From assembly GCA_009760885.1 (NCBI GenBank), contig CM019692.1, forward strand, positions 52,884,355 through 52,948,354: a DNA stretch of 64,000 nucleotides. Reading direction: 5' to 3'. Origin of the DNA: Achatina immaculata (Eukaryota > Mollusca > Gastropoda > Stylommatophora > Achatinidae). The notes below the pieces were generated by a model. The model was not told the origin of the DNA. It did not search any database and saw only the letters and a list, made by a program, of their open reading frames with translations. Below are positions 3,878 to 56,691 of the stretch, piece by piece. The translations under genes and the position numbers were made by a program. How positions within the stretch are numbered: position 1 is the stretch's first letter; the number at the start of each line of letters is the position of its first letter.

Positions 3878-4896
3878 GTGAGAGATGGTTGCCTATCTAG
3901 ACTGCCCTGGTCCAGTGTCTCTGACTTCAGCATTTTGTGATCGTGGCCGCTATCCTTCCTAGTTGTGACCAGGACGGAGCTTTTGTCCAGGAGGACGAAT
4001 CCTCGCCACTAGTAAGTTCCACCCTTGGGTTGAGCCGGTTTACGCATATTATCCCAGTATAGGCGTGTTTAGGACGTGACCGACCTCTAGAGCGGAGGTA
4101 CCGTGACATGAGTAGTCATTAAGTTTCACCCCTGGGTTAAGCCGGTTTAGGCGTATTATCCCAGCATGGGTGTATATCGGACGTGGCCGGCCTCTAGAGC
4201 AGAGGTGCCGTGGTATGAGTAGCTCTCGCCGCGAGACTACTGGACATACCGATTAAGCTTCACTTTATCCTTTCCATCACCTTTTCTACTGCGGCGCCGC
4301 ATTACAACGTTAATTGCTTTTCCCCATTTTCTTACTTGGCCGGGAGGAGTTTCACTCCACGCGCGGCATCCGAAGAATCTTGCCAGCAGTGTCTTAACCC
4401 CTGGGTTAAGCCAGTTCAGGCAATTCGCCTGGTATGAGTGCACATAGGACGTGGCCGACCTCCAGAGCAGAGATGCCGTGATTTGAGTAGTTCTGACCTC
4501 GAAACTACTGATTACTTCCCTTAATCCTTTCTTTCACCTTTTCCACAGTGGCGCTAGGCGGCAACCCATTCGCACCTTTCTTCACTGGCCGGGAGGAGCC
4601 CCACTCCACGCACAGTAGCTGAATAATCTCGCCAGCAGCGGGTTTTAAATCAGAGTTTTCCCTCTCTCAGATGAGCTACTAAACAAGACTCTCATCTATC
4701 CGAAACGTCTGGCTTTCAGGCGCCAGATATTTGCATTCGCCCCTTCTCCTGTCAGTTTGATCAGTTCCGCCACGAGAAGGCCAGAAGCTGGACTTGACTG
4801 TCAGAGGCTATTTGAGAAGCACGCCTTGGAGACATTTAGTTGGAGTGGAGAGCGTATCACCCACCCCACCTCCGGCTATGACAGTCCTTAGAACCA
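3878..4896 (-). mobile_element. Retroelement E, copy 1 (3'-truncated)
   Basis: The reverse complement matches the other E copies at 32969-34050, 34487-35511 and 39023-40312. It carries the same blocks: the 5' start beside GGTTCTAAG at about 4896, GAGCTTCACTCC-type modules repeated twice, GCTCTAGAGG modules, and the segment with CACAACTAGGA and TCTAGATAGGCAACC. It stops near 3878, before the hairpin units and the (GAA)n tail seen in other copies. No long open frame is present, so E looks non-coding. No target duplication could be defined because the 3' end is missing. Confidence 0.75.
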
Positions 4897-4989: not shown

Positions 4990-5710
4990 ATTATTGTCCT
5001 TGCCAGAGCCACGTCGGGATGCCACTTTGCACTCATATCCTGCCTGACTTGCAATAGAGCGTTGTGTCGGATGTTAGATGTTGCCAAATATATCCCATCA
5101 ATTCTTTTTCTGGCTCCATGATTTCTTTAAGTTTTCGGGCGAAATTCTTCAGATCCTGCCTTACGGCCCACCCCTCCCCTTTAGAATGTCAGGAGTTTAG
5201 CAGGGACGAAACATTTGCCTTGGGGGAGGGGCGGTACTTTCTCTGACATCTAGAGAGCTGTGATGTTGCTCTACTCTACAGTACAGAGTTCCTGCACACT
5301 TCAAATTCTGTGTTACTTTCCCTTCTCAAGCCCCCCTCCCCTCCATTAGAGTGTCAGGAGTTTAATAGGAGTTTGTCGGGGGAGTACTTCCTCTGATGAT
5401 CTAGGGAGTTGTGTTGTTGTTCCGCTCTCTACAGTAGAATTTCCTGCACACTCCATATTCTGTCTTGCTTTCTCTTCGTGTTGTCTTCGACCCAGATATT
5501 CGCATCTCCTTTGCAAACTTGACACCAAACTTGACACACTGAGACCTGAGGCGCGAGACATGGCCAGAGGACACAAGCTTGGGGCTTCTATCAGGATCAG
5601 GAGAGGACTGCGGGCTTTGCCATGTCGACAGGGATCAGGATCTGAAGTGACAAACAGCCTCGAACGTAGAAGAAGAAGAAGAAAAAGAAGAAGAAGAAGG
5701 CCATCTTACC
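4990..5710 (+). mobile_element. SINE-like family F body with (GAA)n tail
   Basis: Two related ~180-bp blocks follow each other (about 5160-5330 and 5340-5480). Each has a GTCAGGAGTTTA core, TACTT(T/C)CTCTGA, and a TCCTGCACACT end. A non-repetitive piece and an (AAG)n tract at about 5670-5700 follow. The same body occurs in reverse at 31150-31440, where it is joined to a tRNA-like head. The 61-codon basic open frame over the (AAG)n tract is translated simple sequence, not a gene. Whether the (GAA)n tail belongs to this body or to a separate element is uncertain. Confidence 0.55.
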
Positions 5711-31968: not shown

Positions 31969-34900
31969 GAACCTTAAGTGCCCAGGGCACATGGGGCTTC
32001 CGCAAGGGTTTTCCACAAATGCCTGTCCTTCGCCTTTTTTCTACTCTTGCCCAGGTGAGCCCTCTATTGCTCAACAACCTTTCTGTTGTTCTTCTCCATG
32101 TCTCTTTTGGTCTACCCTTACTTCTGTTCCCCTATGGTGTCCATCTTAGTGCTATTTTTGGTAGTGAGTTGTCAGTCATTCGGAGCACATGTCCCAACCA
32201 TTGCCAGTGTCTTTCCTCAATAATTGTTGTCAGTGGTTTCATCTGCATTTCTGCTAATAAGATGTTATTTCTTATAGTGTTTGGCCAAAATATATATATA
32301 TCATTTGCATTTCAAGAAGTGCAGTTAACATAAGTTAACTGTCAGCCGCGCCGAGCTGCACAGCGCGGGCTGCTGCTGTTGCGCAGGCCGACCGTTCTTT
32401 TGGCGAAAAAGCGCTCTCGAGTTCCGTGCGTGGGGAGACAGGCTTTCGCTCCCTTCCCGGACGGCGAGAGTTAAGGTGTTTCGATGCAGAAGCAAGTGGT
32501 TTGTCCGTCGTGCGAAGCATGTAAACGGCTAGCCAGCCAGGTTCGTGCTAACGATGTAGTACGGTTTTGTAGACCGATGGTCTCGAAATTGGCCCATCTC
32601 TCGCAAAGAGTATCGGGTCTGCAGTATGTAACGTGTATTGTTTGTGGGTGGCCAGGCTTTCTTCTCCGCTCGTTAGAGCAGAGAGAGCCGCCCCCGCCGG
32701 TTAAAGGAAATGAAACGCCGCCGGGGTCGAAAGGGATCCGCTCTGGGCAGAGCGCTGTCTCCCTTGCCCCGCGTCGGTCTGTCGGCAGATATCCGACAAA
32801 GGTTCGGTGAAGAAAGCTTTCTGGTTGATCCTGCCAGTAGTCATATGCTTGTCTCATAGATTAAGCCATGCATGTCTAAGTTCACACTGTCTCATGGTGA
32901 AACCGCGAATGGCTCATTAAATCAGTCGAGGTTCCTTAGATGACACGATCCTACTTGGATAACTGTGGACACTGCTGGCGAGACTCTTCAAATGCCGCGC
33001 GTGGAGTGAAGCTCCTCCCGGTCAAGGAAGAAATGCGGAAAAGAAATAAAGGTTGCTGTCCGTTGCCGATGGGAAAGGTGGTGGAAAGGATAAAGTGAAG
33101 TTTAATCTTTATGTCCAGTAGTATCGCTACGAGAGCTATACATACCACGGCACCTCTGCTCTAGAGGCCGGTCACGTCCGAAATACACCTACACTGGTGA
33201 AATATGCCTAAACCGGCACACACCAGGGGTGGAACTTGATGGCTAGACATGTCATGCCACCTCCGTTCTAGAGGTCGGTCACGCCTGATATACACCCATA
33301 CTGGTGAATTTTGCCTAAACCGGCTCACACCAGGGGTGAATCTTGAAGGCTATGCATGTCACAGTACCTCTGCTCTAGAGGTCGGTCACGTCCCAAACAC
33401 GCCCATACTGGGATAATATGCCTAAACCGGCTCAACCCAGGGGTGAAAGTCACTAGTGGTGAGGATTCGTCCTTCTGGACAAAAGCTCCATCCTGGTCAC
33501 AACTAGGAAGTGTAGCGGCCACGACCGCAAAATGCTGAAGTCGGAGACACTGGACCAGGGCAGTCTAGATAGGCAACCACCTCTCACCCAGCGGGGATGT
33601 TTGCGTATCCTAATCATGCTGAGGTTTTCCGGTGAGAAAGTCCAACTCTGGACTGGATGGGCAACCACCTCTCACCCGGCGGTGATACACGGGTATATTA
33701 AAACACGTCGAGGTTTTCCGGTGAGAAGGTCCAACTCTGGCCTGGGTGGGCTACCGCCTCTCACCCAGCGGGGATGCACTGATATCCTAAACACGTCGAG
33801 GTCTTCCGGTGAGAAAATCCAACCCTAGACTAAACTGGTGCAATGAAAACCACGGTGTCACGCAATCCCGCTTCTGAGACCCACCAAGAATACAGGCTAA
33901 AGCCCTGTGATACTCTGAACCCCTTGTGATCCTCACGTGGATCTCGTGTGGTCCCTTCAGGAGACCACGGGACCTAACGAGGACCACAGGCGTAAATTCA
34001 GTAGGATCACAGTGCGGTCTTGGTGGTAGAAGCGAACGAAGAAGAAGAAGATAAGTTAACTGAAGACATTGTCCAGAAGACATAGAATTTGATGATATAA
34101 AGTAGGATGCCTTTTGGACAGAGAGGATGAGAGAAAGAGAAAAAAAATTATGATTTAGTTAACAAGTTGGATAAATAAATGGACTAGAAAAAAAAACAAA
34201 TGATAGAACAGAAGGTAAAGAGGAAATGTAGAAACTAATTATAAATAATTAATAACAAAGAAATAGCAAACGACTGTAGAAATAACAGAAAAAATGAGGA
34301 AAGGGAAAAAAATAGCCAATGCAAATGCAGATTAAAAACATAAAAAGTAAAATTCTGAATGAAAAAAATAGAAAAAACATTTTTTAAAGGAAAAAAATCC
34401 ATTTTTAAAAGAAATAAAACAAATACAGTAATGAAATCAAATAAGAAGCAAAAAAATATGAGAGAAATCAAATGATTGAAAGTAATCTTCTTCTTCTTCT
34501 TCGTTCGCTTCTACCACCAAGACCGCACTGTGATCCTACTGAATTTATGCCTGTTGTCCTCGTTAGGTCCCGTGGTCTCCTGTGTGGTCCACAAGAGGTT
34601 CAGAGTAACGCAGGGCTTTAGCCTGTATTCTTGGTGGGTCTCTGAAGCGGATTGCGTGACACTGTGGTTTTCGTTGCACCAGTTTAGTCTAGAGTTGGAC
34701 CCCTGGTGTGAGCCGGTTTAGGCATAATTCCCCAGTATGGGTGTATATCAGGCGTGACCGACCCCTAGAGCGGAGGTGGCATGACATGTCTAGCCATCAA
34801 GTTCCACCCCTGGTGTGTGCCGGTTTAGGCATATTTCACCAGTGTAGGTGTATTTCGGACGTGGCCGGCCTCTAAAGCAGAGGCGCCGTGGTATGTATAG

Positions 34901-37900
34901 CTCTCACAGCGATACTACTGGACATACCGATTAAATTTCATATCCTTTCCACCATCTTTTCACGTCGGCGCCGCAGCAGCAACCTTTATTTCTTTTCCGC
35001 ATTTTCTTCCTTGACCGGGAGGAGCTTCACTCCACGCGCGGCATTCGAAGAGTCTCGCCAGCAGTGTCTTAACCCCTGGAATAAGCCGGTTCATGCATTT
35101 TACCCGATATGACTGCACTCAGGACGTGGCCGACCTCCAGACCAGAGGTGCCGTGATTTGACTGTTTGCTTCGCTTTATCCTTTCTACCACCTTTTCCGC
35201 AGTGGTGCTGCGCGGCAACCCTATTCGCACCTTTCTTCATTAGCCGGGAGGAGCACCGCTCCACGTACGGCAGCTGAAGAATTTCGCCAGCAGCAGTAGA
35301 TGAGCTACCAAACGTGCCACTCATCTACCCTAAGTATCTGGTTTTCAGGCGCCAGATATTCGCCTTCGCCCCTTCTCCTGTCAGTTTAAACAGTTCTGCC
35401 ACGGGAAGGCCAGGAGCTGGACTTGACTGCCAGAGGCTGTTTGAGACGCACGCCGTTGGAGTGGAGATCGAATTCTCCACCCCACCTCCGGTAATAACAG
35501 TGCTTAGAACCATTCAAAGTAATAAAACAAAGGACAACTAAAGAAATCAAAAGATGAGATTTATAATAAAAGAAAAGAGTAAAACAAAAATAAGAAAGAC
35601 TAACAACAAAAATAGGAAAGAATATAAATTAATTAAAAGCAGAAAACGAGAAAGAAGGAATGAAAGAAAGAAAATAATAAATCATAATAAGATAAGCACA
35701 CAGAAACTAAATACTGAGAGAAGGAATGAAAGAATAGCAACATAAAATGGAATAAATACTGAATGAAAAGAGATCACCTTTTCCTCGTAAGTATTTCCAA
35801 GAATTTGCTGGACATTCTTCAGATCTACTGTTCCCTTCACGGCCCTCTTGCCTTCTTTCTTCTTTTTCTTCTTCTTCCTGCAACATCTTCGACACACACA
35901 AAATATACAGCAGGACAGCAACAACAAGGCTCCGATCAGGGTCAGCACAACAGCCCATACTGGCACTGAAGACCTCAATAAAAGTAACAAGTTTAAGAAC
36001 ATGTGGCATAGACAAAGCAGGAAAAGGCCGGAGATGGTAAAGTTAAGACAGCTATTGACAGTTTTGAACTAGGACGCAGGCAGACGTCAGCTGCTGTGAG
36101 TTTTGCCAAGCATGATCGTGCAGCAGCTCTGTTATGGTCGACTCTACCAATGTTGGATTTGCATACCCGGCCACCATTACAGCAAGCATTGTTTGTGTTC
36201 TAAAGATCACTTTCCTCACATCGTCTACTCATAATATAAAGGCAGTATGGCACCATATATTATTAGTTATTACATATTAATAAGATGAACAGCGACGAAC
36301 AAAACCTCTATCTTAATGCAAAGAAAACTAAATTGATGACAACTGACAAAACAAACAAGGCAGCTGAAATAAGTATCAATGAGGAAAAACTGGAAGAGGT
36401 GGAGAGTTTTGAATATCTTGGATCACTGCTAACTAATAATGGAGATACAATGAGGGAAATTAAAAGGAGGACATCTATCGTTCTTCAGAAAGTAAAATAA
36501 AGAATCTGTGGAGAGGAGCAGACAGAACTACAAAAATAAGATTTTTAAGGACATGCATCTTTCTCACCGCAACATATGCCTATGAGACCTGGACACTTAA
36601 CAAAACAGCTGAGAAACACATAAATGCCTTTGAATGTAAATGCTACAGAAGAGTTCTTCAAATATTGTTGACACAAAAAAGAACAAATATATCCATACTA
36701 CAAGAGCTTAATATTGACGAAGGCTGGCTAGTAAAGAGGATTAAAGAGAGAAGACTTAAATATTTTGGACACATTAAACGTCATGATAATCTAGAGAAGA
36801 CCGTCTTGGAAGGGTACATAATGGGAAAAAGAAAGAGGAAGACCAAGGCTATATTGAACCTATCTTGTTATATGGAAGTGAATCATGGACAATAGGCAGG
36901 TCTGCACAAAAATCACTGGAAGCAGAGAGAAATGTGGTTTATTAGAAGAATGTTGCGAATCCCCTGGACAGCAAAAATAACTAATGAAGAATGTAGGAGA
37001 TGAGCTGGAGAGACAAAAAAACCTTGTCAAAAAGATAAGAGAGAGACAATGTACTTTCATAGGACATGCAATGAGAAGAGGGGGCATTGAAAATATTATA
37101 ACAACAGGAAAAATATAAGGAAGAAGATCAAGAGGAAGACCAAGAGAAATGATATTGGACAGTCTGACGGGATGGTGTGAGAGGAGATCACCAACTGAGA
37201 AGATGGCCTGCATGAAGGATCGTGTACTCTGGAGAAGCATAATAGCCAACGCCAGTCGGCATGGCACATGATGATGATGATGATGAAGACCAAGGCGAAG
37301 ATGGCTGCAAGACATCGTTGATGATCTGCAAATGGATACATCAGCAGAAGGCCATCTTGCTCACAACCGAGAGGCCTACAGGAGTGCTGTTTGGGAGGCA
37401 AAGTTCCGCAAGGGACATGCAAATGAATGAATGAACATATTAATAAAATCATATAAACTTACACATATCCTAAAATCAACGTTAAAATTTGTTTTAAACT
37501 TGTCAGCGCAAGGTCATGAACATAGAACTAGTAACAACTTTCAGTGAGAGCATACCTGGCCCTAACATAGGACATCTTCACAAAATCCAGAATATCACGA
37601 TTAAATATCACAATTTTTTTTTTGTGTGCATTCTATCAGCACCAGGGCATCTTACTTACAACCGAGATGCCTACATGAGAGCTGTTAGGGAGGCAAAGTT
37701 CCGCAAGGGACATGCAAATGACTCTGACTGAATGATCTTTACCTTCTATATGGCACTCTTATCTGCGCTTGGTCAGTGATTCGCTACGTGTGCAACAAGC
37801 TGCAGAGCAGCAACAAATTTTCCCCAATTCTCGTGGTCTATGGCCAGCCTTTGTGTGATACCCCAAACATGATTCATGCTATTCATCTTTGCTCACCAGG

Positions 37901-40900
37901 TTGTGTTTTGTCAGTAACTAGTATCACTTTCCCTTGGGTGTCTATCACAAATGTCCCCTCTAAGTTACCTCCCCTTTGTGAAAGTCATAATCGTGTAATG
38001 TGCCCAGATTGACTTCTTGTATAAAAATGACAAAATTGCGGCTTTTATTTGTCAGTTTTTTATGTTAATAACTCTGTGATAGAGCAGCGCTGAAGAGAAA
38101 TAGCGTTATATGAGTCTGTTTTTCTGATTTCTACTTTTTTCCGGATGAGAATTTTTAAACTACGCGCTGTAATTCGACGTTACCGCGCACGATAGCGCAC
38201 ACGATTTTCTTTAGAAAATATATTTGCACACGGATCAAACATTTTGCACACGAACCGCAAAACCTTGGCGGTCACACTGACCATCACATGGTTATTTTAA
38301 CGATGTTGCTGGGGTCCCTACGGAGCACTTTGTATATAATCTCCATTATTTGAGATACTTATGGCAGTAAATGAAAATCTTTGAGGAAAAATGTATATAT
38401 ATATATTACATCATCATCAGTTGCCGTGCCGACTGGCGTTGGCTATTATGCTTCTCCAGAGTACACGATCCTTCATGCAGGCCATCAGCTCAGTTGGTGA
38501 TCTCCTCTCACACCATCCCGTCAGACTGCCCAGTATCATTTCTCTTGGTCTTCCTCTTGATCTTCTTCCTTCTATTTTTCCTGTTGTTATATTATTTTCT
38601 ATGCCCCCTCTTCTCATTGCATGTCCTATGAAAGTACATTGTCTCTTTCTTATTTTTTTTTACATCATTTTTTGTCTCTCCAGCTCATCTCATACATTCT
38701 TCATTAGTTATTTTTGCTGTCCAGGGGATTCGCAACAATCTTCTAATAAACCACATTTCTGCTGCTTCCAATGATTTTTGTGCAGACCTGCCTATTGTCC
38801 ATGATTCACTTTCAATATAACAAGATAGGTTCAATATATCATTTTAGGACTCATTTTCTAACATTCATTGATAAGGATGTGTTGGTCAATATGTTTCTCA
38901 TTCTCTGAAATGCAGTCTTTGCTTGGGCCTATTCTGTTCCTAATTTCTGTTCTGCATTTCCCATGTGAAGTTATTACTGCTCCAAGGTATTTGAATTTCT
39001 GCACCTGCTTTAGAATAGTTCCTCTGCCGCTGTTGGCGAGATCTTCAGCTGCCGTGCGTGGAGCGGTGCTCCTCCCGGCCAATGAAGAAATTTGCAAATG
39101 AGGTTGCCGCGCAGCATCACTGCGGAAAAGGTGGTAGAAAGGATAAAGCGAAGCAAACAGTCAAATCACGGCACCTCTGGTCTGGAGGTCGGCCACGTCC
39201 TGAGTGCAGTCATATCGGGTGAAATGCATGAACCGGCTTGTCTCAGAGGTTAAGACACTCCTGGCGAGACACTTCAAATGCCACCGTGGAGTGAAGCTCC
39301 TCCCGGTTAAGGAAGTAAATGCGGAAAAGAAATAAAGGTTGCTGTGCGGCGCCGATGGGAAAAGGTGATGGAAAGTGAAGTTTAACTGGTATGTCCAGTA
39401 GTATCGCTACGAGAGCTATACCATGGCACTTCTGCTCTAGAGGCCGCCCAAGTCCGAAATACACCTACACTGGTGAAACATGCCTAAACCGGCACACACC
39501 AGGGGTAGAACTCGATGGCTAGACATGTCATGCCACCTCCACTCTAGAGGTCGGTAACGCCTGATAAACACCCATACTGGTGAATTTTGCCTAAACCGGC
39601 TCATTCCAGGGGTGAATCTTGAAGGCTATGCATGTCCCGTCCCAAACACGCCCATACTGGGAATGCCTAAACCGGCTCAACCCAGGGGTAGAAGTCACTA
39701 GTGGCGAGGATTCGTCCTCCTGGACAAAAGCTCCATCCTGGTCACAACTAGGAAGGGTAGCGGCCACGACCACAAAATGCTGAAGTCGGAGACACTGGAC
39801 CAGGGAAGTCTAGATAGGCAACCACCTCTCACCCGGCGGGGATGTTTGCGTATCCTAATCACGCTGAGGTTTTCCGGTGAGAAGTCCAACCCTGGACTGG
39901 ATAGGCAACCACCTCTCACCCGGCGGTGATACACGGGTATCTCAAAACACGTTGAGGTTTTCCGGTGAGAAAGTCCAACTCTGGCCTGGGTGGGCTACCG
40001 CCTCTCACCCAGCGGGGATACACTGATATTCTAAACACGTCGAGGTCTTCCGGTGAGAAAGTCCAACCCTAGACTAAACTGGTGCAATGAAAACCACGGT
40101 GTCACGCAATCCCGCTTCCGAGACCCACCAAGAATACAGGCTAAAGCACTGTGATACTCTGAACCCATTGTGGTCCATTCGTGGATCTCGTGTGGTCTAC
40201 TTTGGACCACACAGAGGACCACGGGACCTAACGAGGACCACAGGCGTGAATTCAGTAGGTTCACAGTGCAGTTTTTGGTGGTAGAAGTGAACGAAGAAGA
40301 AGAAGAAGAAGAAGAATAGTTCCGTTTAATTTTATACTGCATGCTCGTGGATTCTGTTTCTTAGATATAACCATAGTCTCTGTCTTTTTGATGTTAAAAG
40401 TAAGGCCTTTCTGTTCACTTTCTTTGGCGACTTTATCCAAGAGATTTTGCAGCTCTTGTTGGTGTGTATTAATATATATTACATAAAAGTTTAATTTGTA
40501 CCTCTTTACGTCAAGAGCATATATATGGTCTTAGTGCCTATATTTTCCTTAGAGGCACATAGGAATATGGTCTTAGTGCCCATATTTTCCTTAGAAGAAC
40601 ATAGGAATATGATGTTAGTGCCCATATTTTCCTTAGAGGAAGATAGGGATATGGTCTTAGTGCCCATATTTTCCTTAGAGGCATATAGGGATATGGTGTT
40701 AGTGCCTATATTTTCCTTAGAGGCACATAGGGATATGGTCTTAGTGCCTATATTTTCCTTAGAGGCATATAGGGATATGGTCTTAGTGCCTATATTTTCC
40801 TTAGAGGCACATAGGGATATGGTGTTAGTGCCTATATTTTCCTTAGAGGCATATAGGGATATGGTCTTAGTGCCTATATTTTCCTTAGAGGCACATAGGG

Positions 40901-42447: not shown

Positions 42448-44373
42448 CAACATGTTAAGACTCTCTCTCTCTCTCTGAACCTTAAGTGCCCAGGGCACTT
42501 GGGGCTTCCACAAGGGTTTTCCACAAATGCCTGTCTTTCGCCTTTTTTTCTGCTCTTGCCCAGGTGAGCCCTCTATTGCTCAACATCCTTTCTGTTGTTC
42601 TTCTCCATGTCTCTTTTGGTCTACCCTTACTTCTGCTCCCCTGTGGTGTCCATCTTAGTGCTATTTTTGGTAGTGAGTTGTCAGTCATTCGGAGCACATG
42701 TCCCAACCATCGCCAGCGTCTTTCCTCAATAATTGTTGTCAGTGGTTTCATCTGCATTTCTGCCAATAAAATGTTATTTCTTATGGTGTTTGGCCAAAAT
42801 ATTTTTTTAATTCTACGTAAACATTTAGTCTGGAAAGAATTCAACTTGTTTTCTATGGTTTTGGTGATTTTCCAGCATTCACTTCCATAGAGTAGTACAC
42901 TTAGAACATTACTCTTAAATATCCTGATTTTCATATTTATGCTTAGTTTATTTGATTTCCATATATTCTGTAGCATTGCAAAAGCTTGGTTTGCTCTAGT
43001 AAGTCTGCTGTTGATGTCCTCTGTGCTGTCTCCATTTTCTACTACTCTGCTGCCAAGGTATACAAATTCGTTGACTTCCTCCACTAACTTGTTATCTACT
43101 CTGAGTACATTTCTGTTGTTCACATTTTGCTTCATTAACTTTGTCTTTCCTACATTGATCTTTAGTCCTATGTTGTTTGCATTCTGGATTAACTTGTTTA
43201 TTTTATCTTGCATATCTTTGTGACTGCTTGATAATAGACAAATGTCGTCCGCAAAGTCAAGGTCCTCCAGCACTGTGTCAAGGGTCCATTGTAATCCTCT
43301 GCGTTTGTCTGATGTTGCCTCCTTCATTAACCAGTCTACTGCCAAGATAAATAATGTTGGTGATAGTACACATCCCTGTTTCACTCCTGTTTGTACCCTA
43401 AAGCTGCTGGAGGTATGTTCTCCACAGATAACTTTGCACTGAAAACCCTCGTATAGGGCTTTGATTACATTAATTATTTTATGGGGGAGGCCATGCCATC
43501 TTAGGATTTTCCACAGTGCATCTCTGTTGACACTGTCAAAGGCTTTCTCAAAATCTATGAATAATGCATATGTTGTGCTATGCCACTCATTTGCCTGTTC
43601 TAATATTTGTCTAAGTACAAATATATGGTCTATGCATGATCTTCCTTTCCTAAATCCTGCCTGCTCTTTCCGAAGTTTTTTCTCAAGTGTTGGTACAATT
43701 CTGTTGATGATTATTCTGCAAAATACTTTACTAGTGAGTGGCAGTAGGGTAATGCCTCTCCAGTTCCCGCAATTTCTGAGGTCACCCTTCTTTGGTAGTT
43801 TTACTATAAGACCAGTTTTCCACTCCTCTGGGGCTTTTTCTAAATCCCAAATTTGTTGTAAATGTTAAGACTACTTTAGTACTAAAGTAGGAACAGGTTT
43901 GTTAACTAACCAGCACACGGTTATAGTAGGTCATGCCGACACAGGTCCTTCCTGGTATCACTGCTTGCTCTATTAACATCATTTAAACTGCAATCATTAA
44001 TTAAAATGCATTTAAATGAATAGAAGCTAGAAATGCAGCAGATACTCAGGAGTAACATTTCTGCAAATAATCTTTTTAAAATACAAATGAGAGAAAAAAA
44101 GAACGCTGTCAAATATAAACAAAGATTAAGTATTATGTACTTTAGTCATACAGATGTTAAAATCAGGACTCTGTTTATAACGAAACAATACTCACATTTT
44201 TTTAACTCATCTATAACTCCGTCACTGGTCTCCTCAGGTATGCTCTCGTGAATGTCTTCAGAGCTATATCCAGAGGAAGTAGAATTTTCCGTTGGTTTAA
44301 AGTCCACTATCGCTTCTGTTGAATTGATAGGCTCAAAGGCTGCTAGCCGCCTCATTTGGAAAAGATGATTCAT
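20006..44373 (-). CDS. Syt1: Synaptotagmin, Syt1/2-like (gene span, 8 coding exons)
   Basis: Coding exons in transcript order are 44373-44196, 35965-35778, 30586-30461, 28377-28210, 27136-26963, 25409-25292, 22345-22212 and 20191-20006. They join in frame to 423 residues, near the length of human SYT1. Synaptotagmin-1 is the Ca2+ sensor for fast vesicle fusion; it binds acidic membranes and SNAREs. The protein has a luminal N-terminus with two NST sequons (N17, N30), a membrane segment at about 61-76, a Cys-rich stretch [11 protein letters not shown] (likely palmitoylated), poly-Lys, then C2A and C2B. Ca2+ ligands are D179, D185, D237, D239 and D245 in C2A, and D312, D318, D372, D374 and E380 in C2B. 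The C2B polybasic strand (KRIKKKK) and the C-terminal WHTL are present. The family call is firm. The exact subtype (Syt1/2 against a molluscan paralogue) is inference. Confidence 0.95.
20215..20772 (+). mobile_element. LINE-D fragment antisense in synaptotagmin intron 7
   Basis: Translation in shifting plus-strand frames gives [14 protein letters not shown], then (from 20500) [17 protein letters not shown] and [17 protein letters not shown]. It begins about 20 bp from the exon 8 acceptor, so the branch-point region of that intron may lie in LINE sequence. Confidence 0.8.
20773..21374. other. Synaptotagmin intron 7, no further feature
   Basis: Intronic DNA. A 72-codon open frame at 20834-21052 has no family resemblance. 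Confidence 0.5.
21375..21645 (-). mobile_element. SINE-1 copy
   Basis: In reverse orientation it shows AGACACATAGGGATATGGTG, GACCTGTCAGCACACTAGAG, CCAACTCCAGAAG, a degenerate B box (GTTTGAATCC on the minus strand) and an A-box end near 21640. Confidence 0.8.
21775..22122 (+). mobile_element. LINE-D 3' fragment with (ATAAG)n tail
   Basis: A 91-codon open segment (21813-22088) encodes [32 protein letters not shown] and ALCDV. It then reaches the non-coding end and tail GATATAAGATATAAGATAAG. It is the best-preserved LINE-D 3' end here, antisense in synaptotagmin intron 7 and about 90 bp beyond the exon 7 donor. Confidence 0.85.
22212..22345 (-). CDS. Syt1: Synaptotagmin exon 7 (C2B)
   Basis: It encodes residues 318-362: [19 protein letters not shown], the polybasic strand that binds PIP2 and SNAREs in family members, and [19 protein letters not shown]. 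Acceptor GTGAAACAG, donor CAG|GTATTT. Confidence 0.95.
22495..22690 (-). mobile_element. SINE-1 copy, 5'-truncated
   Basis: It shares GGCACATAGGGATATGGTGC, CTTGACC.ACAGCACACTAGA and CAACTCCAGAAGAAGTCAGG with other copies. The tRNA-like head is missing or decayed. Confidence 0.75.
22985..23925. repeat. 40-bp minisatellite in synaptotagmin intron 6
   Basis: About 23 near-identical units have consensus ATAATACATAAACTGATGTT then GTATACTATAAAATACTGGC. Variants differ mainly at ATAATAC/ATAGTAC. The motif reappears, decayed, at about 25010-25130 beyond an inserted block. Confidence 0.95.
23940..25009 (+). mobile_element. Unassigned retroposon-like block with (ATG)n end
   Basis: About 1 kb of non-coding sequence interrupts the decayed edge of the 40-bp repeat and ends CACATGATGATGATGAC. 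Internal duplicated phrases such as GTAGAGGCTG and CAGCCTCTACAC form an inverted pair near 24070 and 24130. I cannot assign a family. Confidence 0.35.
25190..25291 (-). repeat. 26-bp tandem repeat of the synaptotagmin exon 6 splice donor
   Basis: On the minus strand the exon ends TTATCAG|GTGAGTCTCTC. The intron then repeats a 26-bp unit (GTGAGTCTCTCATTGTGG then TTTGTCAG) about four times. At least two downstream copies keep a near-consensus donor (TCAG|GTGAGT and TAAG|GTGAGT); a third is weaker (TCAA|GTGAGT). Confidence 0.9.
25292..25409 (-). CDS. Syt1: Synaptotagmin exon 6 (C2A/C2B linker and C2B start)
   Basis: It encodes residues 279-317: [20 protein letters not shown] and [16 protein letters not shown]. 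Acceptor TTGTACAG, donor TCAG|GTGAGT in phase 1. The donor region is tandemly repeated in the intron. Confidence 0.95.
25480..26160 (+). mobile_element. LINE-C 3' part, antisense in synaptotagmin intron 5
   Basis: A broken frame encodes [38 protein letters not shown] and [20 protein letters not shown]. It ends at CATGCAAATGACTGACTGAC. It lies about 70 bp upstream of exon 6 in gene orientation. Confidence 0.85.
26161..26962. other. Synaptotagmin intron 5, no further feature
   Basis: Intronic DNA. A 102-codon plus-strand frame (26498-26806) is hydrophobic and Cys-rich, but it has no recognisable family and lies antisense in an intron. Confidence 0.5.
26963..27136 (-). CDS. Syt1: Synaptotagmin exon 5 (C2A second half)
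   Basis: It encodes residues 221-278: [47 protein letters not shown]. It contains three C2A Ca2+ ligands (D237, D239, D245). Acceptor GTCAACAG, donor GAAG|GTCAGA. Confidence 0.95.
27700..28190. repeat. Short degenerate GTGATGAGTGAAGTGAAG repeat split by a SINE
   Basis: Irregular 12-21-bp iterations of GATGAGTGAAGT lie on both sides of the SINE-1 at 27790-28033. Confidence 0.75.
27790..28033 (-). mobile_element. SINE-1 copy with likely 11-bp TSD
   Basis: In reverse it shows the 3' AGAGGCACATAGGTATATTG, the body CCAACTCCAGAAG, a B box (GGTTCAAATC on the minus strand) and the A-box end CACTAACCACTTTTCC. The direct repeat ATGAGTGAAGT flanks it at 27779-27789 and 28034-28044, though the flank is itself repetitive. 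Confidence 0.85.
28210..28377 (-). CDS. Syt1: Synaptotagmin exon 4 (C2A first half)
   Basis: It encodes residues 165-220: [53 protein letters not shown]. Ca2+ ligands D179 and D185 are present. Acceptor CTGACAG, donor AAG|GTTACC. Confidence 0.95.
28378..30460. other. Synaptotagmin intron 3: LINE relic and T-rich repeat
   Basis: At about 29085-29330 a decayed LINE C-terminus is recognisable (plus strand, ETWRR-like), including a 33-bp direct duplication containing GGCATGGGAGACAACCAAGA. At 29690-29895 are degenerate CATCCAATTTTT units. The long minus-strand frame at 29021-29542 is the antisense of the LINE relic. The remainder has no recognised feature. Confidence 0.5.
30461..30586 (-). CDS. 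Syt1: Synaptotagmin exon 3 (linker and start of C2A)
   Basis: It encodes residues 123-164: [42 protein letters not shown]. Acceptor CTTCTGCAG, donor GGGGAG|GTAAAT, phase 0 at both ends. A decayed second copy of its 3' half lies at 37969-38021. Confidence 0.95.
30620..31074. other. Synaptotagmin intron 2, no feature recognised
   Basis: AT-rich intronic DNA without a recognisable repeat or coding segment. Confidence 0.5.
31150..31530 (-). mobile_element. SINE-like family F with tRNA-like head
   Basis: On the minus strand a head with TAGCTAAATCGCTAAAGACG (A-box region) and GGGTTCAATCCC (B box) is followed by a body matching 5160-5480 (GTCAGGAGTTTAATAGG, CTTCCTCTGATGATCT). A separate GGTTCGAATCC at about 31080 on the plus strand may be the head of another, truncated SINE. 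Confidence 0.7.
31531..31905. other. Synaptotagmin intron 2, no feature recognised
   Basis: The two overlapping plus-strand frames (31492-31796) resemble no family. One phrase (CTTCTCAATGCCCTTGCTCTTGA-like) may derive from an antisense retroelement, but this is not certain. Confidence 0.35.
31906..32295 (-). mobile_element. LINE-A 3' fragment with (TA)n tail
   Basis: An (AT)n run (about 31910-31966) is followed by CTGAACCTTAAGTGCCCAGG and the LINE-A C-terminal region in reverse ([14 protein letters not shown]) to about 32290. Here the tail is (TA)n where other LINE-A copies have (GA)n. The right flank is also (TA)-rich, so the target duplication cannot be read. Confidence 0.85.
32342..32819 (+). 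other. 5' external transcribed spacer-like rDNA segment
   Basis: About 478 bp of GC-rich, non-repetitive sequence sits immediately upstream of the 18S start, in the position of the 5' ETS. It is much richer in GC than surrounding DNA. Plus- and minus-strand frames here (32335-32857) are chance products of the composition. Its left end would mark the Pol I start if the copied RNA was complete, as inference. Confidence 0.7.
32820..32968 (+). rRNA. 18S rRNA 5' fragment (~149 nt, pseudogene)
   Basis: It contains the universal CTGGTTGATCCTGCCAGTAG start, TTAAGCCATGCATGTCTAAG, GGTGAAACCGCGAATGGCTC and TCCTACTTGGATAACTGTGG. It then breaks off where 18S normally continues CAATTCTAG. One change from the metazoan consensus is visible (TCTCATAGA for TCTCAAAGA). 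It cannot be functional. Confidence 0.95.
32969..34050 (+). repeat. Retroelement E, copy 2, internal repeats and (GAA)n tail
   Basis: It starts inside E at ACACTGCTGGCGAG. It has three ~107-bp units with CTCTAGAGGTCGGTCACG and AAACCGGC (about 33160-33470). Three ~88-bp units follow, each with TCTCACC and a matching GGTGAGA (33582/33631, 33670/33720, 33759/33808) that could pair as stems. A 3' region with a GTGGTC/GACCAC pair ends at GCGAACGAAGAAGAAG. No long open frame. Confidence 0.85.
34063..34474. other. A-rich intronic DNA
   Basis: Purine-rich, A-dominated sequence without a gene. Similar A-rich sequence resumes at 35524-35760, on the other side of the E insertion at 34487-35511. Confidence 0.5.
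34487..35511 (-). mobile_element. Retroelement E, copy 3, with ~12-bp TSD
   Basis: In reverse orientation, (TTC)n at the low end is the (GAA)n tail and GGTTCTAAGCACTG at 35511 is the 5' end. It is flanked by ATTGAAAGTAAT (34475-34486) and ATTCAAAGTAAT (35512-35523), 11 of 12 matching. This copy has the full 5' end but lacks the ~88-bp hairpin units, which shows the internal modules vary between copies. Confidence 0.85.
35778..35965 (-). CDS. Syt1: Synaptotagmin exon 2 (membrane segment)
   Basis: It encodes the rest of L60 and residues 61-122: [16 protein letters not shown], the Cys cluster [11 protein letters not shown], poly-Lys, and the linker [18 protein letters not shown] chose acceptor GTCTTCAG because it fits exon 1 in phase and gives KKLPVW. 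Acceptor TATTGAG eight bases upstream would break the frame. Donor AAAG|GTGATC. Confidence 0.9.
36284..37434 (+). mobile_element. LINE-C 3' part with 12-bp TSD, interrupted by LINE-B
   Basis: It encodes [28 protein letters not shown]-type segments and [20 protein letters not shown] in broken frames. After the nested LINE-B it continues to CATGCAAATGAATGAATG. It is flanked by ACATATTAATAA at 36272-36283 and 37435-37446. It lies antisense in synaptotagmin intron 1. Confidence 0.9.
36850..37284 (+). mobile_element. LINE-B 3' fragment nested in LINE-C, 12-bp TSD
   Basis: It starts TATTGAACCTATCTTGTTAT ([17 protein letters not shown] region) and ends GGCACATGATGATGATGATG. GAAGACCAAGGC flanks it at 36838-36849 and 37285-37296. 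The LINE-C sequence is continuous if it is removed. Confidence 0.92.
37625..37735 (+). mobile_element. LINE-C 3' end fragment
   Basis: It contains GGGCATCTTACTTACAACCG, GCAAAGTTCCGCAAGGGACA and the tail ATGCAAATGACTCTGACTG. Only the terminal ~110 bp is present. Confidence 0.75.
37969..38021 (-). pseudogene. Ghost copy of synaptotagmin exon 3 (3' half with donor)
   Basis: The minus strand reads [16 protein letters not shown] followed by GAG|GTAACT. This matches the end of exon 3 at 30461-30520 ([28 protein letters not shown]) with a three-codon deletion. The donor is kept, but the 5' half and acceptor are not recognisable. It lies in intron 1, upstream of exon 2 in transcript order, so it cannot replace exon 3 in a normal mRNA. 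Confidence 0.75.
38022..38398. other. Synaptotagmin intron 1, no feature recognised
   Basis: AT-rich DNA with no repeat or coding signal recognised. Confidence 0.5.
38412..40471 (-). mobile_element. LINE-B with 13-bp TSD, interrupted by element E
   Basis: In reverse it runs from a (TCA)n tail through [24 protein letters not shown] sequence and KYLGAVITS to about 40471, with element E nested at 39023-40312. ATATATATTACAT flanks it at 38399-38411 and 40472-40484 (low complexity but exact). Frameshifts make it inactive. Confidence 0.88.
39023..40312 (+). mobile_element. Retroelement E, copy 4, nested in LINE-B, 11-bp TSD
   Basis: This is the longest 3'-complete copy: GGAGCGGTGCTCCTCCCGG module, GGAGTGAAGCTCCTCCCGG module, CTCTAGAGG units, three TCTCACC/GGTGAGA units and a (GAA)n tail. 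AGAATAGTTCC flanks it at 39012-39022 and 40313-40323, and the LINE-B is continuous without it. There is no rRNA at its 5' end. Confidence 0.92.
40510..41315 (-). mobile_element. SINE-1 with internally expanded 42-bp minisatellite
   Basis: The tRNA-like head is at the high end (minus strand TGGCGAAGTGGTTAGTGG, then GTTCGAATCC). It is followed by the SINE body and, at about 40510-41095, some 14 copies of a 42-bp unit (TTAGAGGCACATAGGGATAT then GGTCTTAGTGCCTATATTTT CC). In ordinary SINE-1 copies this unit is present once. As 42 is a multiple of three, open frames appear on both strands; they are artefacts. A poly(G) run lies at about 41199-41219. Confidence 0.9.
41319..41445 (+). mobile_element. 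Retroposon 3' end with (AATC)n tail
   Basis: About 100 bp is followed by TGCAAATAAAGTTCAAGCAG and TCTGTCAATCAATCAATCAA. An AATAAA and a 4-bp iterated tail suggest a LINE or SINE 3' end, but no coding part is present. Confidence 0.5.
41446..42284. other. Synaptotagmin intron 1, old repeat debris
   Basis: It includes a phrase (GGGGCCCCTGGGCAACTGCC) resembling part of 5850-5890 and C-rich runs near 42228-42241. I cannot assign an element. Confidence 0.35.
42285..42446. repeat. Degenerate TTGCTGATATCACCA repeat and (TA)n
   Basis: About six 22-25-bp units of TTGCTGATATCACCATTCACC are followed by an (AT)n run. A related repeat lies at 44374-44720 on the other side of exon 1. Confidence 0.75.
42463..43861 (-). 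mobile_element. LINE-A (RTE-like) 5'-truncated copy with 11-bp TSD
   Basis: A 300-codon minus-strand frame (43384-42482) covers the later reverse-transcriptase palm with [10 protein letters not shown], the [10 protein letters not shown] region, [11 protein letters not shown] and [12 protein letters not shown]. Upstream codons to 43861 continue it in another frame ([13 protein letters not shown] region). The (GA)n tail is at the low end. ATGTTAAGACT flanks it at 42452-42462 and 43862-43872. Plus-strand frames are antisense shadows. Confidence 0.93.
44196..44373 (-). CDS. Syt1: Synaptotagmin exon 1 (luminal N-terminus)
   Basis: It encodes residues 1-59 from [10 protein letters not shown] to DGVIDELKK and ends at AAT|GTGAGT in phase 1. 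NST sequons are at residues 17 and 30. An in-frame ATG at 44442 would add 23 residues, but those codons overlap a tandem repeat, so I prefer 44373. Non-coding 5' exons may lie further up. Confidence 0.8.
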
Positions 44374-54497: not shown

Positions 54498-56691
54498 GTA
54501 GCAAAAATAAAACTAAAACTAAAATTAAGGAAAGCCAGAATCGGAGAACACAGAAAGATACATTTTGATACAAGAAAACTGATAGACCAGCAAACAAGAA
54601 ATGAATTCTCAATAATACTTAAGAACCGCTTCTGTGTCCTACAAGACGAAGCAGAAATGTCCATATTAGAGTTCAATAAAACACTACAGGAAACAGCAAA
54701 AGAGGTGCTGGGATATCGGAAAAGGAGAAAAGAGGAATGGATAAGTGAGACCACATGGGAAAAGATAGAGCAAAGAAAAGAAATCAAGAAAAAATTACTG
54801 AACACCAAATCACAACGGCTTAAAGAACGAGTTTTAAGTAATTATGCACAAAAAGACAAAGAAGTGAAGGAATCATGCCGTCGAGATAAACGTCAGTATT
54901 ATGACAACTTAGCAGAGACAGCAGAGAAAGCAGCATATACAAATGACATGAAAACCATATATAAAATCACAAAGCAGATGACAGGTAACTTCAATACAAG
55001 ATGTGAAAGTGCAGTAAGAACACAAATGGACAACTGGTCAGTGGAGAAAGAGAAAAAATTGAAAGATGGAGGGAACACTTTAACACCCTACTAAACAGAA
55101 CACAAGCAGCACAAGCAATAGATATACCTGAAGCAAAAGCGGAACTAAACATCAATACAGGACCAATAACAATAAATGAAGTAAAAGAGGCGATAAAGAT
55201 GCTAAAATCAGACAGGGCACCAGGTGAAGATGAAGTGACTGCTGAGATGCTGAAAGCAGAAGAAACAGAAACACCAAAACAACTTTGCCAGATATTACAA
55301 CAAATTTGGGATTTAGAAAAAGCCCCAGAGGAGTGGAAAACTGGTCTTATAGTAAAACTACCAAAGAAGGGTGACTTCAGAGATTGCGGGAACTGGAGAG
55401 GCATTACCCTACTGCCACTCACTAGTAAAGTATTTTGCAGAATAATCATCAACAGAATTGTACCAACACTTGAGGAAAAACTTCGGAAAGAGCAGGCAGG
55501 ATTTAGGAAAGGAAGATCATGCATAGACCATATATTTGTACTTAGACAAATATTAGAACAGGCAAATGAATGGCATAGCACAACATATGCATTATTCATA
55601 GATTTTGAGAAAGCCTTTGACAGTGTCAACAGAGATGCACTGTGGAAAATCCTAAAATGGCATGGCCTCCCCCATAAAATAGTTAATGTAATCAAAGCCC
55701 TATACGAGGGTTTTCAGTGCAAAGTTATCTGTGGAGAACATACCTCCAGCAGCTTTAGGGTACAAACAGGAGTGAAACAGGGATGTGTACTATCACCAAC
55801 ATTATTTATCTTGGCAGTAGACTGGTTAATGAAGGAGGCAACATCAGACAAACGCAGAGGATTACAATGGACCCTTAACACAGTGCTGGAGGACCTTGAC
55901 TTTGCGGACGACATTTGTCTATTATCAAGCAGTCACAAAGATATGCAAGATAAAATAAACAAGTTAACCCAGAATGCAAACAACATAGGACTAAAGATCA
56001 ACGTAGGAAAGACAAAGTTAATGAAGCAAAATGTGAACAACAGAAATGTACTCAGAGTAGATAACAAGTTAGTGGAGGAGGTCAACGAATTTGTATACCT
56101 TGGCAGCAGAGTAGTAGAAAATGGAGACAGCACAGAGGACATCAACAGCAGACTTACTAGAGCAAACCAGGCTTTTGCAATGCTACAGAATATATGGAAA
56201 TCAAATAAACTAAGCATAAATATGAAAATCAGGATATTTAAGAGTAATGTTCTAAGTGTACTACTCTATGGAAGTGAATGCTGGAAAATCACCAAAACCA
56301 TAGAAAACAAGTTGAATTCTTTCCAGACTAAATGTTTACGTAGAATTAAAAAAATATTTTGGCCAAACACCATAAGAAATAACATCTTATTGGCAGAAAT
56401 GCAGATGAAACCACTGACAACAATTATTGAGGAAAGACGCTGGCGATGGTTGGGACATGTGCTCCGAATGACTGACAACTCACTACCAAAAATAGCACTA
56501 AGATGGACACCACAGGGGAGCAGAAGTAAGGGTAGACCAAAAGAGACATGGAGAAGAACAACAGAAAGGATGTTGAGCAATAGAGGGCTCACCTGGGCAA
56601 GAGTAGAAAAAAAGGCGAAAGACAGGCATTTGTGGAAAACCCTTGCGGAAGCCCCATGTGCCCTGGGCACTTAAGGTTCAGAGAGAGAGAG
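54498..56691 (+). mobile_element. LINE-A nested copy with perfect 12-bp TSD
   Basis: A plus-strand LINE-A is truncated at the end of its endonuclease (KIKLKLRKARIGEHRKI) and complete at the 3' end with a (GA)n tail. ATGTCTATTGTT flanks it at 54486-54497 and 56692-56703. One frameshift near 55060-55095 separates the upstream linker from a long open reverse-transcriptase frame. The intact flanks and open RT suggest a recent insertion. Confidence 0.95.
55199..56674 (+). CDS. LINE-A reverse transcriptase, C-terminal open frame (491 codons)
   Basis: The frame holds the RT blocks in order: [77 protein letters not shown] with the catalytic Asp pair, and [10 protein letters not shown] post-RT region follows with [11 protein letters not shown], a zinc-free thumb/connection and [12 protein letters not shown], ending APCALGT. 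It belongs to the RTE-like group of non-LTR retrotransposons. The ATG at 55199 is merely the first in the frame, since the natural protein begins upstream. Without its endonuclease this copy cannot move on its own. Confidence 0.9.
   Translation: MLKSDRAPGEDEVTAEMLKAEETETPKQLCQILQQIWDLEKAPEEWKTGLIVKLPKKGDFRDCGNWRGITLLPLTSKVFCRIIINRIVPTLEEKLRKEQAGFRKGRSCIDHIFVLRQILEQANEWHSTTYALFIDFEKAFDSVNRDALWKILKWHGLPHKIVNVIKALYEGFQCKVICGEHTSSSFRVQTGVKQGCVLSPTLFILAVDWLMKEATSDKRRGLQWTLNTVLEDLDFADDICLLSSSHKDMQDKINKLTQNANNIGLKINVGKTKLMKQNVNNRNVLRVDNKLVEEVNEFVYLGSRVVENGDSTEDINSRLTRANQAFAMLQNIWKSNKLSINMKIRIFKSNVLSVLLYGSECWKITKTIENKLNSFQTKCLRRIKKIFWPNTIRNNILLAEMQMKPLTTIIEERRWRWLGHVLRMTDNSLPKIALRWTPQGSRSKGRPKETWRRTTERMLSNRGLTWARVEKKAKDRHLWKTLAEAPCALGT

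Follow-up and report, generated by a model that had tools for sequence, protein, structure and literature searches.

About a thousand dispersed fusions of 5′ pre-rRNA sequence with a non-coding retroelement in the Achatina immaculata genome, probably made by template jumping

In a 64,000-nucleotide stretch of Achatina immaculata DNA (the window), a copy of the 5′ end of the ribosomal RNA precursor is joined in sense to a non-coding retroelement, here called E, and units of the same kind recur throughout the genome. The sequence-only reading from which this analysis started had taken the locus for a single unusual event; instead, 861 exact matches to an 18S 30-mer and 717 to a 30-mer of the 5′ external transcribed spacer (ETS) point to about a thousand fusions of differing age. 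We think it quite probable that these fusions are explained by LINE-type target-primed reverse transcription (TPRT) of E RNA, in the course of which the enzyme jumped to 5′ pieces of pre-rRNA as template, and, as part of the same reading, that E is a non-autonomous, non-coding, LINE-dependent retroelement of about 1.3 kb with a (GAA)n tail, whose fuller form, M-E, carries a 176-nt 5′ module, M.

The insertion in the window and its surroundings

The insertion at 32342-34050 is bracketed by a perfect 12-bp target-site duplication (TSD), ATAAGTTAACTG, of which the left copy (32330..32341) and the right copy (34051..34062) are exact matches and the only two plus-strand occurrences in the window, which bears out the earlier view that the ETS, 18S and E sequences entered as one insertion. 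The first 476 nt (32342..32817, + strand) are taken to be a copy of the pre-rRNA 5′-ETS from its first bases, a label given by position ahead of 18S; relatives elsewhere start at the same place, and the segment is joined to 18S both here and in them. It is followed by 18S rRNA nucleotides 1-151 (32818..32968, +). The Rfam SSU_rRNA_eukarya model matched at 32821-32837 (CTGGTTGATCCTGCCAG, model positions 4-20) and scored 14.6 bits against a gathering score of 50, a shortfall due to the shortness of the piece, and Rfam at gathering thresholds accordingly gave no match in the window. The model positions place the 18S start at 32818, so that the proposed beginning at the first 18S base held while the proposed length of about 149 nt became 151 nt; relatives extend to 18S 1685 or into ITS1. 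Element E then occupies 32969..34050 (+), is 5′-truncated as had been supposed, beginning at E position 218, the second internal repeat, and runs to position 1299 and a (GAA)n end with 93% identity to the E of locus L012. The 18S/E junction (32968/32969) was likewise as first described, with one shared G at most. In a self-comparison of the window, the ETS-18S part gave the self-match alone and E gave three further copies.

The base preceding TCAGCC was G in 20/20 relatives, which probably makes G 32341, here also the last base of the left TSD, the real start of the insert. Position 32342 had been put forward as the RNA polymerase I (Pol I) start; what stands is that the first base marks the 5′ end of the RNA, probably the Pol I start, with the coordinate itself probably moving one base to the left. 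Compared with the commonest copies, the window leader is missing 10 nt near its 5′ end and has 11 substitutions in 626. A deletion of 10-11 nt near the leader start (32341-32360) recurs in L013, L025 and L026, copies that are otherwise different, and may represent an rDNA length variant or repeated slippage. A complete rDNA unit was not found in the assembly, where a presumed 5.8S word gave 0 matches, and the 18S 3′ end occurred exactly in L039-L041 only, with no normal unit downstream in the stretch read at any of them. A search of plasmid records with the query gave two partial matches and nothing more.

Other copies of E lie in the window. One without rRNA or M (39023..40314, +) has the common E start, CGCTGTTGGCGAG, at 39028 and a TSD, AATAGTTCC, recognised by eye at 39014-39022 and 40315-40323. 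An M-E copy (34489..35511, −) consists of M, starting GGTTCTAAG, and E with an internal deletion, and an older M-E copy (3878..4895, −) has its 3′ side cut off; M with the start GGTTCTAAG is found at 35511-35340 (−), 4895-4640 (−), in L046 and L050, and in others. A different element at 5600-5700 has a tail, GAACGTAGAAGAAG, that is similar to how E ends, and was possibly moved by the same LINE. Two window open-reading frames, 42482-43861 (−) and 55007-56671 (+), belong to two LINE copies with RVT_1 and DUF6451; no link from either to a (GAA)n tail was found, nor was the LINE partner of E found. A repeat overlapping both LINE copies also flanks the window insertion on its left.

Abundance, integrity and recurrence of the fusions

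A 627-nt ETS-18S query run against the genome (a 1.65-Gb assembly of 145 contigs, window included) produced 2,284 first-look candidates, and the 40 of these that were scored gave 42 match rows on many contigs at 97-100% identity, 41 of which begin at query base 1 or 3. From this set, which is selected for complete leaders, 20 places were fetched, and an E tail lay downstream within the fetched stretch in 19, the exception, L024, having 559 nt of E; the piece between leader and E varied in length, with the 18S part stopping at different points. A second set, blind to ETS and E, was formed from the first 31 entries among the dispersed matches to the 18S 30-mer (18S 140-169; reversed control 0), minus L024, which was already in the first set. 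In these 30 unselected loci, rRNA runs into E in 29, with the E call in L032, L066, L070 and L079 made partly by eye and with L077 having 18S without E. The rRNA is unprocessed: ETS is attached in 29/30 (L062-L081 having been fetched only from leader position 356 or 376 onward), the exception being L079, which begins within 18S, and the mature 18S end is not the starting point of any locus. Over all 51 loci, E succeeds the rRNA in sense in 50, including L011, where a presumed 28S piece intervenes, and excluding L077. On contig C1, the 18S word had 47 matches and the ETS 30-mer also 47, 17 of the latter without a nearby 18S word, giving ~64 fusions on C1 and an estimated genome total of ~950 (scaled by length) to 1,200 (by word count), figures that are based on exact words and miss mutated old copies.

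Each unit is a single insertion, since one TSD surrounds the whole unit in 20 of the 22 loci compared: the longest word common to the 5′ and 3′ flanks was at least 9 bp in these (median 12), against 2/460 in a mismatched-pair control, the 22 being those of 31 loci that had both ends, with the other 9, which lacked one, set aside. L014 and L023 arose by duplication of a single insertion together with its flanks; L027 was scored through a neighbouring repeat word in its flank, its own TSD, ATAGGACTAGT, being seen separately; L017 was missed in the count through the picking of an inner tail, and its 11-bp TSD was seen separately; and in L020 a TSD was absent from both flank comparisons. Among 19 clear duplications judged by eye, 12 were at TT/A and 14 at TT/R, which is the context expected for an APE-type endonuclease, and the TSD length together with the TT/A context fit mobilisation by a LINE reverse transcriptase as the likely enzyme. 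Misassembly or chance is a practically negligible explanation, given the many loci with unique flanks and matching TSDs and a reversed control word that gave 0 matches in every word search that gave matches.

The units also usually share a 5′ end. Of the 10 unselected loci whose 5′ side was available, 6 begin at (G)TCAGCC or its mutated form and 4 at leader position 15, 62, 63 or 162, and GTCAGCC is probably the Pol I start and the true 5′ end of the RNA. This common end and the dispersed, TSD-bracketed relatives support the original proposal that TPRT on E RNA was followed by a switch to pre-rRNA, which was then copied as far as its 5′ end. As in LINE-mediated chimeric retrogenes, the two parts are joined directly in the same orientation, one TSD lies round the whole chimera and the 5′ part appears to reach the RNA 5′ end. 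Copies both old and young are found among the fusion loci, and ETS and 18S tend to be more diverged the more E differs from one young copy (rho 0.53 and 0.68 across the 28 of 51 loci that qualified), indicating that the parts aged together and that the process has been long-running.

The 18S end of the fusions is variable and shows preferred points, with 19 endpoint clusters in 50 loci, of which 21 loci fall at 220-225, 4 at 151-152 and 4 at 169; in the 30 unselected loci, 12 endpoints are at 220-225 and 3 at 169. In this set, 20/50 loci were chosen by their ETS (19 fetched plus the window), L023 is left out as the duplicate of L014, L025 is counted by its second copy, its first ending at 152, the cluster at 629 is L077 without E, and the endpoints of old copies are approximate BLAST ends. 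On a tree of E from 42/51 loci, the endpoint label 219-226 (19 rows) needs 17 changes, at least 9 of them forced by starred branches, while shuffled labels need 14.1 on average and 487/500 shuffles were as low as the observed 17. The tree omits L032, L066, L070, L075 and L079 by choice, L030 and L077 for having no E row, and 2 loci of less than 700 nt, and it includes L024, L062, L068 and L080 on long branches that probably reflect non-E sequence past the truncation. The label is unclustered, indicating that the endpoint recurs and is not inherited, as expected for a property of the acceptor, and we rejected on this ground the candidate explanation that the hot-spot copies descend from one chimera. 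From their sequences, the fusions appear to be recurrent and not one amplified chimera.

The same tree bears on the idea that a single ETS-18S-E chimera became a self-copying retroelement family, in which internal deletions gave the 18S lengths. Such a family would produce copies in many places that share a 5′ end and have TSDs, but the scattered endpoint label, an E start that is mostly fixed beside an 18S endpoint that is variable, the existence of old and young copies, and the presumed 28S insert and tandem pre-rRNAs described below make it highly improbable. An rRNA-headed SINE family would have one junction by descent; the 19 endpoint clusters in 50 loci, unclustered on the E tree, do not have this form.

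Exact words along 18S fall from 861 matches (140-169) to 226 (554-583) and 55 (1013-1042), and the counts fit an exponential with a decay length of about 317 nt, which predicts 4 at the 18S end. The 18S 3′-end word had 3 matches, of which only L040 is a long pre-rRNA copy, L041 being the last stretch of 18S and L039 a scrambled old copy. This falling coverage suggests either that the acceptors are 5′ pieces of pre-rRNA or that success comes mostly at 5′ run-off with limited processivity. The scrambled 18S pieces of L039 and its ITS1-like sequence adjoin degenerate TTAGGG-like repeats.

The E start, module M and repeated jumps

The 5′ stop of E is discrete, and it is mostly at this point that rRNA is attached. 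Exact matches to the 35-mer of the E start number 3,026 genome-wide, and those to the M start 1,805. Among the first 19 E-start matches, 9 extend upstream into M (8 with the exact M start, GGTTCTAAGG, and L051 truncated), 9 into sequence unlike the rRNA/E references or M, and 1 is an rRNA fusion, and an exact rRNA word, read from lists, stands close upstream in 8 of about 100 listed E-start matches; fusions thus make up several percent of the sampled E insertions that reach the E start (1/19 and 8/~100). E is also joined to rRNA at several internal positions (22, 218, 293, 449 and 1207). A predicted hairpin in M of -17.1 kcal/mol ends at the E start and ranks 10 of 1,440 M-E windows (z about -3.3), and no unusually stable hairpin was found at jump points 218 (the window), 293 and 449, including those of L026 and L028, so a pause model covers the common E start alone. 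At C1:39568228-39588357 (L042), 8 E-start matches follow in a row at ~2.93-kb spacing with one step of 2.57 kb, and the single unit read from this array carries E in sequence without rRNA.

M was also compared with an HDV-like topology (nested P1-P2-P3 from G1, with a CNRA joint), using a post hoc descriptor that we take to represent HDV-like ribozymes and wrote after M had been seen. It fits 3/3 M, 10/3000 shuffles and 322/63,840 window positions. The candidate helices are P1, GGTTCT/AGAACT (first pair G-U), P3, GCC-TTCCCGT-GGC, and P2, CTCCTG/CAGGAG, and they are kept in two old copies. A search of M against all Rfam families at E 0.5 gave no match. At the E start, the loose descriptor is satisfied only with weak pairs, and no HDV-like fold is claimed there. 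ARAGORN, with bacterial settings, found no tRNA in L012, L042, L046 and L050.

Several loci carry more than one jump. At C1:110538 (L085/L086), read in sense, 18S runs to 223 and is followed by GTCAGCC and a second complete leader to 18S 38, then by CGCTGTTGGCGAG of E, the two ends of this locus having been read and its middle being a match row from the ETS-18S search. At C7:67894 (L087), 18S to 169 is followed by GTCAGCC and the leader to ETS 102, then by E starting at position 26, with about 10 nt shared at the join. In both cases the enzyme quit one pre-rRNA at GTCAGCC and resumed on a second at sites that also receive jumps from E, which argues that GTCAGCC lies at the end of an RNA, that it is the acceptor that carries the hot spots and that the enzyme jumps on reaching the end of its donor. 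In L011, 113 nt that we take to be 28S lie between 18S and E, and in L083, a rarer case, 18S ~404 is joined to the first G of M. L040 and L041 contain the 18S-ITS1 boundary followed by internal E, indicating that acceptors can be unprocessed on the 3′ side of 18S too. It is plausible that the acceptor pre-rRNA is nascent, as the earlier reading called it, because the ETS is unprocessed and ITS1 is present in two loci.

These loci weigh against the main alternative of that reading, an E copy lying inside rDNA at 18S ~149 and co-transcribed with it. In its general form, E inserted in the 18S genes of rDNA would give read-through Pol I ETS-18S-E transcripts that were retroposed elsewhere after priming at the (GAA)n end, and this would account for the pre-rRNA 5′ end, for the orientation in sense and for endpoints common to several copies, 18S 223 among them. 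It would also need a separate rDNA insertion for nearly each of the 19 endpoint clusters, most with the same E start base, and common E ancestry among same-endpoint copies, which they do not have; it does not account for 18S 223 or 169 of one pre-rRNA abutting the +1 of a second, nor the presumed 28S between 18S and E in L011. We consider it very unlikely. A fixed site of the R type is not seen either, as the units are dispersed with TSDs across the fetched loci, rDNA itself being outside the assembly.

The same loci bear on the order of joining and copying. If the 3′ ends of pre-rRNA pieces were ligated to E or M-E RNA and the chimeric RNA was then reverse transcribed in one pass, the discrete 3′ ends and the fixed E start would fit cleaved RNA ends. 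We regard this as an unlikely general explanation, since the double-jump loci would require ligation to a Pol I primary 5′ end, which is normally a triphosphate, and since it sits poorly with the roughly 10 nt of shared sequence at the E junction of L087 and with the several internal positions at which E is joined. Ligation before reverse transcription is possible for single-junction copies, and it has been put forward for U6/L1 chimeras (PMC13174262).

A template-jumping model and its relation to known systems

In the template-jumping model that we favour, APE-type LINE machinery would nick genomic DNA, often at TT/A, and prime copying at the (GAA)n terminus of E RNA, at a site that we infer to be nuclear or nucleolar. 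The enzyme would mostly stop at CGCTGTTGG, the base of the stable M hairpin, and less often at another E position or at the M 5′ end, after which the insertion would be completed as E alone or M-E, or the enzyme would jump to the 3′ end of an unprocessed 5′ piece of pre-rRNA. This acceptor would be copied in sense toward GTCAGCC at its beginning, probably where Pol I starts, with an occasional further jump to a second pre-rRNA or a 28S piece. Acceptor 3′ ends would cluster at 18S 151, 169 and 220-225 and coverage would drop about exponentially along 18S, and the insertion in the window would be one such event. The hot spots could be internal landing sites instead of RNA 3′ ends.

Among the closest parallels, mammalian U6, 5S and 28S chimeras with L1 resemble the E fusions in placing a cellular RNA 5′ of a retroelement and in lying within TSDs, the U6 and 28S parts being mostly in sense; 18 28S/L1 and 27 5S/L1 chimeras are given there, the 5S typically antisense and the RNAs mature, with template switching or RNA ligation put forward as their origin (PMC13174262, PMC4476161). 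The E fusions differ in numbering about a thousand in one genome and in containing unprocessed pre-rRNA, usually from its first base; '18S' and '45S' have 0 occurrences in the main text of PMC13174262. The MINE elements of Magnaporthe are fusions of the WEIRD RNA to the MGL LINE (33 bipartite, 1 tripartite), and they share with the E fusions one cellular RNA repeatedly fused to one retroelement, double jumps, hot spots and predicted hairpins beside switch sites, as at the common E start (PMC2104539). The MINE partner is a full-length RNA of unknown function, whereas that of E is variable-length 5′ pieces of pre-rRNA; 'ribosomal RNAs' are already named there among chimera partners (PMC2104539). 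R2 is like E in the end-to-end template jumping reported for it (PMC2881922) and, if M is HDV-like, in a self-cleaving 5′ end, R2 having a self-cleaving 5′ ribozyme (PMC3414825), but R2 targets a specific site in 28S genes, whereas E insertions are scattered and carry TSDs. SINEs whose heads derive from rRNA (5S, 28S) are also named in PMC13174262. They are like the E fusions in carrying an rRNA-derived 5′ part on a LINE-dependent element. Such SINEs are families with a fixed head, whereas the junctions of the E fusions vary and are not inherited. In a literature search covering mainly open-access journal articles, no pre-rRNA/LINE chimera was apparent from the titles or abstract openings of the records listed. 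As far as searched, the kind of event is known (U6/L1, MINE), and its scale and partner are new.

In the papers compared here, the rRNA and MINE cases of LINE template jumping amount to tens of loci for each partner RNA. A thousand or so fusions with a single RNA make the rules of such jumping readable statistically, namely the donor stop, the acceptor ends, the 5′ run-off and the repeated jumps. The fusions would also preserve features that otherwise go unseen, namely the site where Pol I starts, a fossil record of successive 5′ ETS sequences and the preferred 3′ ends of unprocessed germ-cell pre-rRNA, and they suggest that E retrotransposition occurs near nascent rRNA. On the main reading, long-running switching of E onto pre-rRNA has probably dispersed dated copies of the first bases of the precursor over the chromosomes. 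Tentatively, E retrotransposition may be physically coupled to the nucleolus, its reverse transcription complexes routinely taking new pre-rRNA 5′ pieces as a second template. If that were true, the genome would be a dated archive, over the history of E, of the Pol I start, of ETS evolution and of where pre-rRNA that was aborted or decaying had its 3′ ends (18S 151, 169 and 220-225).
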